From a virus, in the IMG/VR virus record IMGVR_UViG_3300021519_000039, positions 1 to 32,052 of that record: a stretch of DNA of 32,052 nucleotides. One strand, 5' to 3'. Positions 1 through 22,325 of this stretch are shown in pieces (within the stretch, counting starts at the first letter, position 1; each line of letters starts with the position of its first letter). The notes under the pieces were generated by a model, which was given only the letters and a program-made list of their open reading frames with translations, was not told where the DNA came from and did not search any database. The translations under genes and the position numbers were made by a program.

Positions 1-565
1 GCAGTACAGAGTATTTGTGTTCAATTAACTTTACTAGTTTTGCAGCAGATTCTACAGTAAAAGATTTACCTGAGGTATCAATAGGCCCTGTTGGACTTTG
101 TATAACATTTTGAGTAATTCCTCTGCCAAACGGTTGAAAAACTACTATTGGCTTATTTCTTTTGCTCTGCATGTCTTTAATAATACTAGCAGCAGTAATC
201 TTTTCTTCGTGGCTTAAATTTAGTACTGGATTTGGAAGTGCTTCATCTAGTGTACCGTTAATACAAATGTCAAATGCTTGTGAAATATTACACTTTTGAT
301 TATAATACTCCCAAACAGCATAGGGTTCTGGAACTACAACATTTCTATGCTGTACTTTGTCTCTAAACAAATGAGGACCATTAACAGGATATGCTCTACC
401 ATGTAGAGTTGGGTGACAAGTAAATGCTTCATATGCAAATTCTGAAAATATTATAAAATCATCGTGTGGATTGTTTCTATGAAATTTTTCTAGTGCAGGG
501 ATAGAACAGACGACCCTACCAATTCCACCATTGATATAAAACGCAGTATGTCTTGTATTACTCAT
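1..565 (-). CDS. GT-B glycosyltransferase-like protein (glycosyltransferase family 9-like), C-terminus outside window
   Basis: An open frame of 188 codons starts with ATG at 565 and runs to the window edge without a stop, so only the N-terminal part is present. The start overlaps the stop of the upstream oxygenase gene as ATGA, which indicates translational coupling. Near the N-terminus FYINGGIGRVVCSIPALEKF resembles the opening of GT-B enzymes such as heptosyltransferases, where a glycine-rich loop follows the first beta strand. Around residue 145, PIVVFQPFG resembles the start of the second Rossmann half of that fold. From family knowledge it would move a sugar from a nucleotide donor onto an acceptor that cannot be told from sequence. 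It is the last visible member of the cassette with the halogenase and two oxygenases. An NDP-sugar-binding protein of another class is possible. Confidence 0.6.
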   Translation of the reverse strand, partial: MSNTRHTAFYINGGIGRVVCSIPALEKFHRNNPHDDFIIFSEFAYEAFTCHPTLHGRAYPVNGPHLFRDKVQHRNVVVPEPYAVWEYYNQKCNISQAFDICINGTLDEALPNPVLNLSHEEKITAASIIKDMQSKRNKPIVVFQPFGRGITQNVIQSPTGPIDTSGKSFTVESAAKLVKLIEHKYSVL

Positions 566-1206
566 AGTTTTAACTCATTCAATGTTTGTTTATCTCCAAA
601 AGTACCTTTAACAAAACAATTAAAAGCTAAACTTATTCTATTTTTATCAGAAGCATTAGGGTTCACTTCATGTAAAGTTGTAGAAGGAAAATATATAATT
701 GCATTGTTTTTTACAGGAACTTGCCAAGAATTTGAATTAGCTATATTCCATTCTTTAGGATTAATTACTAAAGTAGGATTATTTGTAATTGTTGACGCAG
801 AGTTTGGTGTAAGGAAAGTTATACTAGCTGCATCATCTACATCTATATAATACACACCGCTAATAATAGCATTAGAATGATTATGTCGATGATGTGCAGT
901 TCCAGGCGGATTTATATTTAACCAGGACTGGGTGATATAAAATTCAAATCTTTCATCTATGCACAGCAGATCATTAACATATTCGTTTAAACCGTTTATA
1001 ATTCTATTTTTTATTTCTTTGTATGACTCTAATTCTAAAATATTACTTTCTGCAGATGAAAAATTTTGTTCTCTATTAAGAATTAGATCGGTTTGCTCGT
1101 TACTAGTATCGTGTATTCCACTTAGGCTGCAATATTCGTCATATATAAATACTGGTGTTCCAAACAATAACATAGTGTTTGTCCAAGCTCGTATAGGTTG
1201 TTTCAT
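562..1206 (-). CDS. 2OG-Fe(II) oxygenase-like protein (PF13759-type)
   Basis: This 214-residue protein shows the pattern of the small phage 2-oxoglutarate/Fe(II) oxygenase family. Residues 95-120 hold the run WLNINPPGTAHHRHNHSN followed by SGVYY, with H108 and H110 as likely metal-side histidines. Near the C-terminus LHEVNPNASDKNRISLAFN provides the distal H179 and R190, expected to bind iron and the 2-oxoglutarate carboxylate. The family is expected to hydroxylate a protein or small-molecule substrate using O2 and 2-oxoglutarate; the substrate is unknown. The start overlaps the upstream gene's stop by four bases (ATGA) and its own stop overlaps the next start in the same way, so it sits in a coupled operon. 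The Shine-Dalgarno sequence is weak, which fits coupling. Confidence 0.75.
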   Translation of the reverse strand: MKQPIRAWTNTMLLFGTPVFIYDEYCSLSGIHDTSNEQTDLILNREQNFSSAESNILELESYKEIKNRIINGLNEYVNDLLCIDERFEFYITQSWLNINPPGTAHHRHNHSNAIISGVYYIDVDDAASITFLTPNSASTITNNPTLVINPKEWNIANSNSWQVPVKNNAIIYFPSTTLHEVNPNASDKNRISLAFNCFVKGTFGDKQTLNELKL

Positions 1207-1901
1207 TTTTTTATCTCATTTTGTATTCTAATGTTACCAGAAATGCTTATTCTATAATCGTCTGATGTATAAAAAGGATTAACACCGTGTTTTAATTTTG
1301 AAGGAAATAACATCATAGTACCTTCCCAACCTTTGTCTATAGGTACTAGCGAAGGAACAATATCGCCTAATGTATTAGTGTAATAAAAACAAAATTTTGA
1401 AGTTGCTGCTTTAGACCTATCACCGTCAATTTCTGCTGATGTTGGTGGAAAATAATTTTCTTCATCTGTTAGGTTATAGGGAATTTTCATCCATATTACA
1501 AAACTAAGAACGCCAGCATGCTGATGCAGCGGATTAAATTCGTATTTTTTTTGTTTATTGACCCAAAGACTATCAAGATATATTCCGTACGGCGTATTCT
1601 TAGCTGCTTCTTCAAACGCTTCAACATATCCTGGATATGCATTTCTCCAAGAGTTAGCTACTGCTAGTATGTATTCGGCTATATCGTCTTTTATATGATT
1701 TAAAGAATACTCTTCTTGTAAATGTCCTAACAAGAGGTGATTGTATTCACCAGGTTTTTTATCAATTTCATTTATAGATTTTTCTAAAAAACAATACAAG
1801 TCAAAAGGTATTTTTGTTTGAACAACACCAAAATTATTAAAGTTTATTACTTTTGCTATAGATCCTATCGATCCATCTTGCGTATCTGATTGATTACTCA
1901 T
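1203..1901 (-). CDS. 2OG-Fe(II) oxygenase-like protein, second copy
   Basis: A second oxygenase-like protein, distantly similar in layout to its neighbour. Numbering from the chosen start, LHQHAGVLSFVIWMKIPY at about residues 125-142 carries H126 and H128, and LKHGVNPF followed by DYRISISGN carries H205 and R217, the usual distal His/Arg pair. I prefer ATG at 1901: GGAG lies 12 bases upstream (1914-1917). The longer alternative at 1922 (seven extra residues) has only AT-rich sequence before it. From 1901 the gene overlaps the halogenase stop by eight bases, and it ends in an ATGA overlap with the next gene. Role inferred: hydroxylation or another oxidative modification in the same pathway as the halogenase. 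The substrate is unknown, and loss of catalysis cannot be excluded without a structure model. Confidence 0.7.
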   Translation of the reverse strand: MSNQSDTQDGSIGSIAKVINFNNFGVVQTKIPFDLYCFLEKSINEIDKKPGEYNHLLLGHLQEEYSLNHIKDDIAEYILAVANSWRNAYPGYVEAFEEAAKNTPYGIYLDSLWVNKQKKYEFNPLHQHAGVLSFVIWMKIPYNLTDEENYFPPTSAEIDGDRSKAATSKFCFYYTNTLGDIVPSLVPIDKGWEGTMMLFPSKLKHGVNPFYTSDDYRISISGNIRIQNEIKK

Positions 1902-3483
1902 ACGAGTTGTTATCTCCATCATTATATATATTCTGTTTTAACCACTCGTATGCGCTAAGTTGGTTTTGAGCTGCGGCTGACCATTGTTTCATTTTTTCAT
2001 GTCTATCGTAAAGAAAATAGTTACATCTCTCTTTTAAATTTTCATTAGTACTCAGCCGCCTACGCGATGCATCAACTTCATTAAACACAGAATAGTTCAT
2101 TCCATTAGCAATGCATACTATTCCACCACGGCCGGTGTGCGCATGGTCTGTGGTGTGTCTGTTAAATAAATTATTGAATTCACCTCTGCTATTACTTAAA
2201 TTAGTACTGTATGTTCTTGCCCGATTTTTACGCCAATAATCGCTATCGCTTCTAATAGAAAGTGCATAGTGTAGCGCAACGAATTCTGCAAAACCATTAT
2301 AAAACTTCCTTATCTGTGCATTATATACATCACGATCCCATTGATTGACCACTGGCCTATCTATATGGCGACAAAATTCTAGCATAAATTCATGCACACT
2401 CATTAATCCGTTGCTTTCTAACGGCTCAATAAATGCTGCTGATAGGCCAATCGCTAGTACGTTTTTAACCCATGTTCTTTCGTAGATACCAGTTTTAAAG
2501 TTAATTTTATTAAATTTAAGATCATCAGTAACTCTGTTAGGGTTGTGTAACTTCATCTTATCTGAGTTGAGATAATCTTTAAATTCTTGTAGGGCGTCTT
2601 CGTCAGTGGTAAATTCGTCAGAGTATACGTAGCCGGTTCCTATCCTTGACCATAGCGGTATGTTCCAAACCCATCCGTTGGTTAATGCTGTGCAATTCGT
2701 ATATACTTCTAATTCTTTTTCTTTATCAGTATAGGGTATTTGGACTGCCCATGCTTTATTGTTGGGTAAAATATGTTTGTAGGACACATAGGGTTCATCT
2801 AGTGCTTCGCCTAACAGCAAGCTCTTAAAACCAGTACAATCAACATATAGATCTGCTGTTAATTCTTTTCCATTGTCTAGTATTATTTTAGATACGCCAT
2901 GTTCATCTGTTAAAATTTTATCAACAGTTCCAATTATATGATTAACACCGCGGGGAATACAATATCTCTCTTTAAGATATTTTGCAAAAAGTGCAGCATC
3001 AAAATGAAACGCAGTATCATAATCAAATCTAAAATTATCTAATTTACCGTCAACATTTGTTGCTATTTTGTTTTCATTTACTAGTGACATAATTGGCCAA
3101 AAGTTATCTGCAAAATCACTTGTAGGCGTTGCTGGATAATAAATCTTTTTAAGAAGCCAATCGTTATAATTAAAATTTTGATTTTCTACTGGATCGCCAA
3201 ACGGATAATGGAATGATCCCGAATCTTTATCGTAAAAATCAGTAAATTTAATGCTAAACTTGTAAGTACCGTTGGTATGCTTAAGAAAGTCAACATCGTT
3301 TATTCCAAGGTAATTGGTCCAGTCACGGATAAACGCCAGTGTGCTCTCACCAACTCCTATGCGGGGAATATCTGAACTTTCTACTAATGTAATATTTTTA
3401 TTTGGGAATTTTCTAATAAGAGTTGCCGCTGCCATCCATCCTGCTGAGCCGCCGCCAACTACTAGTATAGATTCAAATGCCAT
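1894..3483 (-). CDS. Flavin-dependent halogenase, tryptophan-halogenase family
   Basis: This 529-residue protein has the usual length and landmarks of the tryptophan halogenase family (PF04820). The FAD-binding loop GGGSAGW is at residues 10-16, and GVGEST at 43-48 is the second flavin contact. K75 in TYKFSIKF matches the catalytic lysine position known from PrnA and RebH (K79). W271-V-W273-N-I-P is the WxWxIP motif that separates halogenases from monooxygenases. IEPLESNG at 352-359 matches the conserved FAD/chloride-side segment. The family uses FADH2, O2 and halide to make HOCl or HOBr, which halogenates an aromatic ring. No flavin reductase lies next to it, so reduced flavin would come from the host. 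It heads the cassette and follows its own promoter. Its Shine-Dalgarno sequence, AAGGAG at 3493-3498, lies inside the arm of a 14-bp inverted repeat. The real substrate is unknown. Confidence 0.88.
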   Translation of the reverse strand: MAFESILVVGGGSAGWMAAATLIRKFPNKNITLVESSDIPRIGVGESTLAFIRDWTNYLGINDVDFLKHTNGTYKFSIKFTDFYDKDSGSFHYPFGDPVENQNFNYNDWLLKKIYYPATPTSDFADNFWPIMSLVNENKIATNVDGKLDNFRFDYDTAFHFDAALFAKYLKERYCIPRGVNHIIGTVDKILTDEHGVSKIILDNGKELTADLYVDCTGFKSLLLGEALDEPYVSYKHILPNNKAWAVQIPYTDKEKELEVYTNCTALTNGWVWNIPLWSRIGTGYVYSDEFTTDEDALQEFKDYLNSDKMKLHNPNRVTDDLKFNKINFKTGIYERTWVKNVLAIGLSAAFIEPLESNGLMSVHEFMLEFCRHIDRPVVNQWDRDVYNAQIRKFYNGFAEFVALHYALSIRSDSDYWRKNRARTYSTNLSNSRGEFNNLFNRHTTDHAHTGRGGIVCIANGMNYSVFNEVDASRRRLSTNENLKERCNYFLYDRHEKMKQWSAAAQNQLSAYEWLKQNIYNDGDNNSYE

Positions 3484-3487
3484 AATG

Positions 3488-3533
3488 AGATCTCCTTTGA
3501 TATTATATTTAATTATAACATCAAAGGAGATCT
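3488..3533 (-). promoter_or_regulatory. 14-bp inverted repeat hiding the halogenase ribosome site, with the promoter -10 between the arms
   Basis: The arms at 3488-3501 and 3520-3533 are perfect 14-base reverse complements (AGATCTCCTTTGAT / ATCAAAGGAGATCT). After one mismatch a further five pairs close a six-base loop. The downstream arm, read on the minus strand, contains the Shine-Dalgarno AAGGAG for the halogenase. RNA arriving from the upstream fibre genes would fold and hide it. RNA started at the local promoter would lack the first arm and leave it open. It could also act as a weak terminator or a processing site, but no T-run follows. Confidence 0.7.
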
Positions 3534-3539
3534 TGTCAA
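3512..3539 (-). promoter_or_regulatory. Sigma-70-type promoter of the halogenase cassette
   Basis: Read on the minus strand, TTGACA (3534-3539) is followed after 16 bases by TATAAT (3512-3517). Both hexamers match the bacterial sigma-70 consensus perfectly. The expected start of transcription is near 3504-3506, giving a leader of about 22 bases before the halogenase ATG at 3483. No other intergenic gap I looked at has such a sequence, so the cassette seems to be read by unmodified host polymerase while the structural genes carry late-type motifs. Confidence 0.75.
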
Positions 3540-3554
3540 GTTGATTTTACTAGA

Positions 3555-4082
3555 TTATTCTTCTGTAGGAAGCGGAGTACCTGGATCAGGTAGTGTGACT
3601 CCAGGAAGCAATGGCCAAACAATATCAGCACCGCTTGTTATTGTTTCCCAGTTTACTGTTGAGGGTAAATCTCTAAGAGCTTGTCTATACTCAGCCCATG
3701 CTGCTTTTTTTTCACTACTGAGTGGTGAATCAACTGCCTGTGTCCAATCACATTGATACAAAAGATTATGTCGTGTTCTATCCATAAATCGTACACGTTT
3801 TTCTGCTATAGAAATTTCGTTTTCTATCCAAAGCTGCGTAAATGTACCGTCGTCATTCTTTACAATTTCGCCCATTTCTCTATCAATGTTAGTTTCACCG
3901 TTGGGCGGGCCAGTCCATCTTGAGTTTAGTACTGGGGCGTAGCCTTGAGTAGTTAGTTCCTCGTTAGTAAAGTCCCATGTATTACCCATTACATGAAAAA
4001 TGTTAATTGGGTCTATAAATGCGTACTCGGGTATCGGATCTCCGTTTGCATCAATTTGTATGTAAAATTCAGTAAATTGCAT
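3555..4082 (-). CDS. Tail-fibre assembly chaperone-like protein (Tfa / tail assembly chaperone type)
   Basis: This 175-residue protein has two parts. The N-terminal part begins FTEFYIQIDANGDPIPEYAF, a beta-rich stretch like those of fibre-tip or chaperone proteins. The C-terminal part, LLYQCDWTQAVDSPLSSEKK followed by AAWAEYRQALRDLPS and a late WP, matches the conserved tail of phage tail-fibre assembly proteins (the pattern DWTQxxDSPLxxEKxxAWxxYRQxLRDL). These proteins help fibres trimerise or attach a tip, and in some phages they stay on the virion. It lies 18 bases after the glycine-rich adhesin gene, the same order as an adhesin with its helper. A GAGGAAC ribosome site precedes ATG at 4082. 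It is the last gene before the sigma-70-driven cassette. Confidence 0.75.
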   Translation of the reverse strand: MQFTEFYIQIDANGDPIPEYAFIDPINIFHVMGNTWDFTNEELTTQGYAPVLNSRWTGPPNGETNIDREMGEIVKNDDGTFTQLWIENEISIAEKRVRFMDRTRHNLLYQCDWTQAVDSPLSSEKKAAWAEYRQALRDLPSTVNWETITSGADIVWPLLPGVTLPDPGTPLPTEE

Positions 4083-4100: not shown

Positions 4101-5642
4101 TTATGGCAAGTTGTGTGTATTGCAGCATGGCCAGCAACGGTTTGAGCCCCAGATGATGCGCACCACACCTGGTCCACCCCAGCCGCCGCCATGTGACGTG
4201 CCGCCTCCGCCGCCACCGCCGCCAAATGATCCGCCACAGCCATAGCCGTTACCTTGACCGTTGCTCCATGGTTCACCAGGTTTTCCACAAGTGCCGCCGC
4301 TGCCTCCTTGGCCGCCGCTGCCTGCTTGATGGCTATAACCAGCATTACCGCAACATCCGCAACTGACAGGGCTTGTAGTGTAGCAGCACATACCGCATGA
4401 ACCTGTGCCGCCGCCACCGCCTGTTCCGTAAGTTGAACTATGGGCGGAAGTGCCTTGGCCGCCGCCGCCGCCGCAACCATATCCTACCGGTGAATTGTTT
4501 GAGCTAGCAGGTCCAGCACTGCAATAGCCAGCGCCTCCGCCGCCGCCGCCTGCGGTGCTGGTATGTGCTACCATTCCGTAACCGCCACAGCAGCTTGTTG
4601 CTCCGCCAGGGATGCCTGGAAAGCTGAAACATCCGCCATAGCACCCGCAGCAGCCACCACAGGCAACCATACCTGGCCAACAACTATCACCGCCTTGACT
4701 TCCGCTCCAGCAGCCGCCGCGCCCTACCAGCACTGTATAACTGCTGCCAGGAGTTACTGGAATATTGTTGGCCCAGACCATGCCGGCGCCGTGGCCGCCA
4801 CAGACTGCCCAGGAGTAGCATCCGCCGCCACCACCACCTATGGCCATAACGCTTACCGCAGTTACACCAGTAGGTGCGACCCAAGTAAACGAGCATTGGC
4901 CGCCGTTTTGTCCATAAGCACCTTCGTATTGTTGTTGTCCTACTGGAAGTAAAAAAGTAACGCTTTTACTAAATGCCTTAGTTCTATATGTAGCTGCTGG
5001 CATATTGGTATTGCGAACACCCAGCGTAAATGTGTATGTATTTTGGCCAGAGCCGGGCGTAGGAAAGGTCATTAACCCTGTACTACTAATAGTAACATCA
5101 CTAGGTAATGTTCCTCTAGTAGTTATCGCCCATTCAGTTGCAGTACCTGAGTTAGCAAACTGAACTGTTTTTGGTGTTGTTATAACAGCAATGTCAACGT
5201 TGGTATTGTCAGTTGTGATCGTTGGAAAATCATTGGTTGAACTAATGATTATGGATACATCTTCGTTATAAACGAACCCATATTTTGTATCTGTAACCAC
5301 AGTGTTCAATACAACAGTGGCTGGATTTCCTGCTGGGGGTGATGTTAGTGTACCACTTAATGCTCCGTTTGAAGCTAGTGTTAGTCCATACTGTGCGCCA
5401 CTGCGCCAAGCCCATGTAAATGTAGAAGTTGACAATGCGCCTTCCAGTGACAGTGTAGTTGATATCGCTTCGTTTGCATTGATGTAGTTTGGTTGACTAG
5501 TGGGATTAAGTACAGCACCGGCCGCCGCAATGTATTTTTCGCCATCACTGGTTAATATTTTACCAGCATTTGCATATGAAGCATCTTCAATAGCCTTTCC
5601 ACCTGCTGTTTTATTTTTTGATAAACCTACGAATCTTCCCAT
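4101..5642 (-). CDS. Cysteine- and glycine-rich tip adhesin with Ig-like domains
   Basis: This 513-residue protein starts with MGRFVGLSKNKTAGGKAIED, a fibre-type N-terminus. Residues about 55-135 and 136-232 look like two putative-Ig (He_PIG-like) domains, with LTLASNGALSGTLTS and VTISSTGLMTFPTPGSG as their signatures. From about residue 255 the chain is dominated by glycine runs up to nine long, then ends with GVVRIIWG and a short cysteine-rich tail. Glycine-rich tips of this kind in marine and T-even phages (the polyglycine sandwich of gp38-type adhesins) bind host surface receptors. The oddity is cysteine: none in the first 249 residues, then 25 between 250 and 509. A late-type motif at 5664-5670 precedes the gene, with AAGGAAA before ATG. 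The GCC/GGC-rich coding sequence also opens false frames on both strands. Confidence 0.75.
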   Translation of the reverse strand: MGRFVGLSKNKTAGGKAIEDASYANAGKILTSDGEKYIAAAGAVLNPTSQPNYINANEAISTTLSLEGALSTSTFTWAWRSGAQYGLTLASNGALSGTLTSPPAGNPATVVLNTVVTDTKYGFVYNEDVSIIISSTNDFPTITTDNTNVDIAVITTPKTVQFANSGTATEWAITTRGTLPSDVTISSTGLMTFPTPGSGQNTYTFTLGVRNTNMPAATYRTKAFSKSVTFLLPVGQQQYEGAYGQNGGQCSFTWVAPTGVTAVSVMAIGGGGGGCYSWAVCGGHGAGMVWANNIPVTPGSSYTVLVGRGGCWSGSQGGDSCWPGMVACGGCCGCYGGCFSFPGIPGGATSCCGGYGMVAHTSTAGGGGGGAGYCSAGPASSNNSPVGYGCGGGGGQGTSAHSSTYGTGGGGGTGSCGMCCYTTSPVSCGCCGNAGYSHQAGSGGQGGSGGTCGKPGEPWSNGQGNGYGCGGSFGGGGGGGGTSHGGGWGGPGVVRIIWGSNRCWPCCNTHNLP

Positions 5643-5663: not shown

Positions 5664-5670
5664 TATTTAT
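5664..5670 (-). promoter_or_regulatory. Late-promoter -10 motif before the adhesin gene
   Basis: The minus strand reads CATAAATAGACG, with ATAAATA at 5664-5670. This is the core of the T4 late promoter (TATAAATA). It lies 21 bases before the adhesin ATG and contains the TAA stop of the upstream 108-residue gene. The expected leader is about 16 bases with an AAGGAAA ribosome site. Confidence 0.5.
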
Positions 5671-22288: not shown

Positions 22289-22297
22289 TTAGATCTC

Positions 22298-22325
22298 CTT
22301 TGACAGTAGTATTTATTTGTCAAAG
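22298..22325 (-). promoter_or_regulatory. 8-bp inverted repeat with late-promoter motif in its loop, touching the ribosome site
   Basis: The arms CTTTGACA (22298-22305) and TGTCAAAG (22318-22325) are perfect reverse complements around a 12-base loop. The loop holds the late -10 motif ATAAATA and the TAA stop of the preceding gene. On the minus strand the downstream arm ends in CAAAG, the first part of the AAAGGAG ribosome site for ATG at 22288. RNA from upstream could fold and cover part of that site. RNA started locally (near 22303) would lack the first arm. Confidence 0.55.
22310..22316 (-). promoter_or_regulatory. Late-promoter -10 motif before the 374-residue gene
   Basis: The minus strand reads AATAAATACTACTG, with ATAAATACT matching the extended T4 late consensus. 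It contains the TAA stop of the upstream 169-residue gene (22313-22315) and lies 21 bases before ATG at 22288. Confidence 0.55.

Follow-up and report, generated by a model that had tools for sequence, protein, structure and literature searches.

The closest described systems come from bacteriophage T4 and from Bacillus subtilis. In T4 genes e, soc and 49 and in the I-TevI gene, RNA initiated upstream forms a helix over the Shine-Dalgarno (SD) sequence and/or the AUG, and each gene has an internal late promoter (PMC3014915, PMC2988022). The long transcripts of e give about 100-fold less lysozyme (PMC3014915, PMC2988022). In B. subtilis, a hairpin of 20 or more base pairs has been proposed to block the translation of sigG from RNA reading through from PspoIIG, and this hairpin cannot form in RNA from PsigG (PMC5942855). 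The logic by which read-through is blocked is thus known already, from the late promoters of the T4 set and from sigG. Here we consider an element before a halogenase gene in the window, by which we mean the whole stretch of DNA that was analysed (32,052 nucleotides, positions 1 to 32,052 of IMG/VR record IMGVR_UViG_3300021519_000039). The original prediction had given this element the logic of T4 e, soc and 49, with a sigma-70 rather than a late promoter as its distinguishing mark. The T4 precedents hold, with the qualification that a sigma-70-family case is known in sigG.

The element heads a cassette encoded on the minus strand. Its first gene (1894..3483) specifies a flavin-dependent tryptophan halogenase of 529 residues (PF04820, E = 3.6e-103) and is followed by two 2OG-Fe(II) oxygenases, at 1203..1922 and 562..1206 (both minus strand and PF13759, with E = 2.1e-10 and 1.9e-20, respectively). 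Upstream and co-directional lies a tail assembly chaperone (3555..4082, minus strand; PF16778, E = 5.6e-16, and a tail fiber assembly PHROG), whose stop codon falls about 21 nt before the hairpin described below. An IMG/VR search with the halogenase retrieved eight contigs at 73-75% protein identity; a second search, with alignment, produced no additional close relatives. In all nine sequences the tail chaperone is separated from the co-directional halogenase by a gap of 63-72 nt. The gene order, all co-directional as far as each contig extends, is fibre, small tail protein, glycine-rich fibre, tail chaperone, hairpin-promoter, halogenase and two 2OG oxygenases. Further downstream, the cassette of L010 continues with a 318-residue protein without a Pfam match, a carbamoyltransferase and then more genes. 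Led by the halogenase, the cassette looks like a small-molecule or surface-modification pathway. It (window 1-3483; L010:8001-13685) lies among genes of phage tail and structural type. For the capsid protein, the nearest matches are from large T4-like phages, for example Sinorhizobium phage Phosso and Cronobacter phage GAP32.

On the minus strand the element reads TTGACA-AGATCTCCTTTGATGT-TATAAT-TAAATATAAT-ATCAAAGGAGATCT-CATT-ATG, where ATG is the halogenase start codon, and from -35 to start codon it occupies about 56 nt. The -35 hexamer TTGACA (3534..3539) and the -10 hexamer TATAAT (3512..3517), the latter with TGT as an extended -10, are both exact and are separated by 16 nt. No other 12/12 sigma-70 match occurs in the first 16 kb, and an exact-consensus scan of the whole window finds this one alone; shuffled windows yielded 0.017 such promoters each. 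The 16-nt spacer is also the 5' arm of an inverted repeat. As had been claimed, the two arms of the repeat (3488-3501 and 3520-3533) complement each other perfectly over 14 bp and the downstream one contains the halogenase SD, AAGGAG (3492..3497), 8 nt before the ATG at 3483. No other repeat in the window has arms of at least 12 bp at a spacing of up to 40 nt, and inverted repeats with 14-bp arms were absent from 60 Markov-shuffled windows. Repeat and promoter are both beyond chance expectation.

In RNA, one G-U pair brings the stem to 20 uninterrupted base pairs, 3533-3514 with 3507-3488, closed by a 6-nt loop, AUUAAA (3508..3513). At this length the 5' arm, AGATCTCCTTTGATGTTATA (3514..3533), comprises the spacer and the first bases of the -10 hexamer, while the 3' arm, TATAATATCAAAGGAGATCT, occupies 3488..3507 as judged by pairing and fold. 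The original prediction of TTGACA-16-TATAAT over the upstream arm is thus matched exactly; its placement of the -10 between the arms is right for the perfect 14-bp arms, but the first bases of the hexamer enter the stem once G-U pairing is allowed. The exact arm sequence found no match in viral contigs, nor did a similarity search with the DNA of the gap in named phages. Elsewhere in the window, a gene start at 22289-22316 on the minus strand has the late motif ATAAATA and shares the SD stretch TCAAAGGAGATCT with the halogenase 3' arm, but lacks a 5' arm to pair with it.

The hairpin alone has a predicted energy of -26.7 kcal/mol. A 90-nt read-through RNA is predicted to fold at -28.6 kcal/mol (z = -6.0), with none of 200 shuffles as good. 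Transcription from the local promoter is predicted to start at 3505, 7 nt past the -10, in agreement with the start near this position expected at the outset. RNA from there lacks the 5' arm and its ribosome site should therefore be open. In the window the predicted cost of opening the SD is 13.7 kcal/mol for read-through RNA against 0.3 kcal/mol for local RNA starting at 3505. Across the relatives the corresponding ranges are 5.6-13.7 and 0.1-3.8 kcal/mol, the contrast being modest in two of them (5.6 against 3.8 in L004 and 7.8 against 2.3 kcal/mol in L003). These predicted costs lend support to the earlier claim that read-through would bury the ribosome site and that local RNA would leave it free.

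We put the probability that the halogenase element is a self-insulating promoter, whose read-through RNA would be silent and whose local RNA would be translatable, at roughly 80%. This reading is based on the anatomy and predicted fold, on the covariation and sense-strand wobble bias described below, on the gene order and on the lack of an intervening predicted terminator. A polymerase arriving from the co-directional fibre and tail-chaperone genes would copy both arms, and the resulting RNA would form the 20-bp hairpin, bury the halogenase SD and yield little halogenase. The consensus sigma-70 promoter, having the 5' arm itself as its spacer, would begin RNA at around 3505 and so leave that arm out. 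We infer both this start and the translational block. Expression of the halogenase and of the downstream cassette would then depend on a host-type promoter rather than on late tail-gene transcription. An uninterrupted stem of 20 bp is also near the size used by double-strand-specific RNases, and a cut in the read-through stem could split the tail mRNA from the cassette. We regard such processing as very improbable, because the stems (16-20 bp, with G-U pairs or bulges) are on the short side and because cutting would not account for the constant match of the 3' arm to the SD and of the 5' arm to the promoter spacer.

The eight close relatives all retain an identical TTGACA, a spacer of 16 or 17 nt, TATAAT or TATACT as the -10, the pairing of spacer with SD, and the gene order. 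In none of the eight is one arm lost while the promoter and ribosome site stay. The arm sequences vary among them through compensatory changes that preserve pairing, so that the paired changes which the original prediction had proposed as a check are seen in all eight, though few of these changes are independent and all belong to one clade. Between the window and L007, four of 16 pairs differ on both sides and are still paired (GC to TA, AT to GC, TA to CG and TA to AT), three differ on one side through G-U exchange and none is broken. Native arm pairs have a mean energy of -23.0 kcal/mol compared with -13.5 kcal/mol when arms are swapped between relatives, a calculation that includes the devices of the kinase-like gene discussed below. 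The non-Watson-Crick positions in the stems of the clade comprise 12 G-U and no A-C, with an extension that scored G-T and A-C mismatches equally; an equal-scoring count over 23 families from other phages gives 19 G-T and two A-C. In hand-aligned stems of the clade, 12 of 16 G-U pairs lie outside the SD core. Within the core, SD conservation may account for some of the bias, and the contigs are not mutually independent.

Since a G-T position can be tolerated only where the folded molecule is the sense RNA, the selected object would be the RNA hairpin on the gene-carrying transcript: on the sequence evidence, the constraint acts on sense RNA and not on a DNA palindrome. This bears on whether the inverted repeat might be a site at which a repressor or activator covers the promoter. 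Symmetric repeats over the -35 and -10 are a common operator layout. However, the arms diverge widely among close relatives while their complementarity stays, leaving the half-site sequence unconserved; a DNA-binding protein would not require mismatches to be G-U only (12:0); and in every case the SD falls in the 3' arm. The chances of a DNA operator accordingly seem to us very slight, and the RNA hairpin of a self-insulating promoter remains the preferred explanation of the repeat.

The fibre genes in the window are preceded by ATAAATA, a T4-type late motif, which across the clade lies upstream of genes 47 times in forward orientation and six times in reverse. The instance upstream of the glycine-rich fibre gene (5664..5670, minus strand) is the expected source of read-through. 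From the late motif at 5670 to the promoter, a terminator scan detected no terminator-like site on the minus strand. A gp55-like late sigma factor (PHROG 12791, E = 8e-79) is encoded by a relative. Late read-through into the cassette is therefore expected. For the cassette itself we infer early or host-polymerase timing. The combination of upstream late motifs with a local sigma-70 promoter suggests, as far as sequence can indicate, an order opposite to that in T4, where a late gene lies on an early or middle transcript.

A late start within the element itself also deserves consideration. The loop overlaps TTAAATA (3512-3506), a sequence invariant in all nine sequences and one mismatch from the ATAAATA of the clade. 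It could serve as a late -10, so that the gene would be read by host sigma-70 polymerase and also by late polymerase starting in the 3' arm, an arrangement that could add to self-insulation, and T4 e has its late promoter, TATAAATA, in the loop at the same position. The T4-type TATAAATA is itself absent from the halogenase element, where TTAAATA is a near match only. Furthermore, TTAAATA occurs in the window mostly inside genes, its conservation follows in part from pairing with the -10, and it is missing from the device of the kinase-like gene. A dual promoter of this kind is, in our opinion, unlikely. The promoter core plus TTAAATA is not enough to define the device: it retrieves 62 stretches in viral contigs, and of the stretches analysed none but those of the halogenase has the hairpin.

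Two relatives (L059:6610 and L066) have this architecture, with unrelated arms, before a kinase-like gene. These devices are positioned at L059:6556-6610 and at 4675 on the minus strand of L066, and the genes have weak deoxynucleoside kinase matches. In two further relatives such pairing at the kinase-like gene is weak or absent; the gene has a consensus -35 and almost no leader in G008 and weak pairing only in G006. Viral contigs were scanned blind for promoters with CTCC in the spacer and GGAG downstream, which left 67 loci after dereplication. Seven of these have a Watson-Crick helix of 11 bp or longer, compared with 0.15 (maximum 3) when spacers were permuted, and nine have duplexes of -20 kcal/mol or below, compared with 0.33 in permutations. 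Under a stricter pattern, CTCCT spacers gave 62 hits and the scrambled TCCCT, of the same composition, ten, both counts being inflated by related contigs and CTCCT possibly being commoner for other reasons. On a 51-kb contig (G013, L391-L393), at least seven consensus promoters nested in SD-hiding or terminator-like hairpins occupy one stretch. On a 91-kb contig (G009, L399:6781-13099), at least five cluster within about 7 kb, a region with genes for a DNA methyltransferase, a RecJ-like exonuclease and a DNA polymerase. A weaker device accompanies a phosphoesterase-like gene (MPSVFLVSDTHFGH...) in many related viral contigs (L150, L156, L203 and others), and in L150 (G011) there is a second device about 1.1 kb upstream of it.

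That the device is a general property of strong promoters can be rejected. Among 326 unselected consensus promoters there is no bulk excess: below 12 bp, pairing of the spacer with downstream sequence shows no general excess over the upstream control, and at 12 bp or more there are four downstream cases against one in the control. The device is therefore lineage-specific. The SD-hiding form was absent from 75 further, more distant halogenase loci, and the halogenases of seven named phages start either in overlap with the preceding gene or within 40 nt of it. The presence of a co-directional upstream gene is uninformative as a discriminator (14 of 17 strong against 40 of 44 weak).

The wider set of examples raises the question of whether the hairpin is mainly a terminator with a promoter nested in it, ending or pausing upstream transcription, so that SD hiding would be secondary and local RNA would escape for want of the 5' arm. 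Between five and eight T directly follow the hairpin in L003, L004, L006 and L010. Among the blind-search families, 10 of 18 strong hairpins but only 2 of 49 weak ones have at least four consecutive T between the SD and the start codon, and in G013 (L391 minus strand, 271) and at the distant halogenase locus L338 a sigma-70 promoter in a hairpin is followed by U, with the SD outside. In the window, in contrast, the tail after the stem is CATT, without a U-tract, as is likewise true of L007, L008 and L009, and a terminator scan did not call the halogenase site. The SD pairing, moreover, is retained in nine of nine sequences and the U-tract in some only. We consider it improbable, then, that termination is the main role of the halogenase hairpin, and prefer to see it as the insulator of its own promoter. 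Two distant halogenases (L336 and L338, 50% identity) have a sigma-70 promoter in a hairpin without an SD, about 100 nt upstream; in L338 this hairpin is followed by U and then by a second hairpin. A single layout seems to serve both termination and SD hiding, of which the window has the latter alone. Literature searches on nested promoter-terminators in phages, with most subscription journals outside their coverage, returned nothing on point.

Opinion could fall equally on either side of the broader proposal that promoter-nested hairpins which terminate and/or silence read-through recur as a punctuation device in phage genomes and have evolved repeatedly, with the halogenase element as one covarying member. 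If this is true, the arrays would place each gene of a co-directional block under its own promoter alone. That the device recurs in unrelated phages suggests a wider occurrence of such silencing than the few textbook T4 cases. The halogenase element would allow an auxiliary metabolic cassette inside a late structural operon to retain an expression programme of its own with no need of a separate terminator, and provides a compact self-insulating promoter whose function may be read from covariation.

What is new here, in relation to the known systems, is a sigma-70 version of the device before an auxiliary-gene cassette inside late genes, its second use before a kinase-like gene, and its recurrence in unrelated phages, sometimes in arrays and in about half of cases with a U-tract that makes the hairpin terminator-like. 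An intrinsic terminator with a nested promoter is approached by some relatives and other phages, which add the U-tract, and not by the window, which has none. In the fold-back protection of transposase genes such as that of IS10, transcription from outside likewise gives a hairpin hiding the ribosome site, which an internal promoter escapes. However, the IS10 arms are the ends of the element, and neither transposase nor terminal repeats are seen next to the halogenase element.

The element also resembles T4 e, soc, 49 and I-TevI. In both, upstream-initiated RNA forms a stable helix, a predicted one at the halogenase, over the SD and/or AUG, the promoter is inside the element and local RNA, given the predicted start, is without the 5' strand; the present phage is also T4-like. 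Unlike the T4 set, in which the internal promoter is late (TATAAATA), the halogenase element has two hexamers of sigma-70 consensus and uses the whole 5' arm as the promoter spacer. The T4 elements silence early or middle read-through whereas the halogenase read-through probably comes from late tail genes. The genes are different and no sequence homology is claimed. What the halogenase element has in common with sigG is a sigma-70-family promoter nested in a hairpin; in read-through RNA this hairpin would cover the SD, and local RNA would be free of it. The likeness is one of architecture only, again with no claim of homology. There, the gene is a cellular sporulation gene at a single locus with a sigF/sigG promoter, whereas the present device is found in a covarying clade and at several unrelated genes and phages. 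The halogenase element would work like the T4 set and sigG, and is placed outside the T4 set by its type of promoter.
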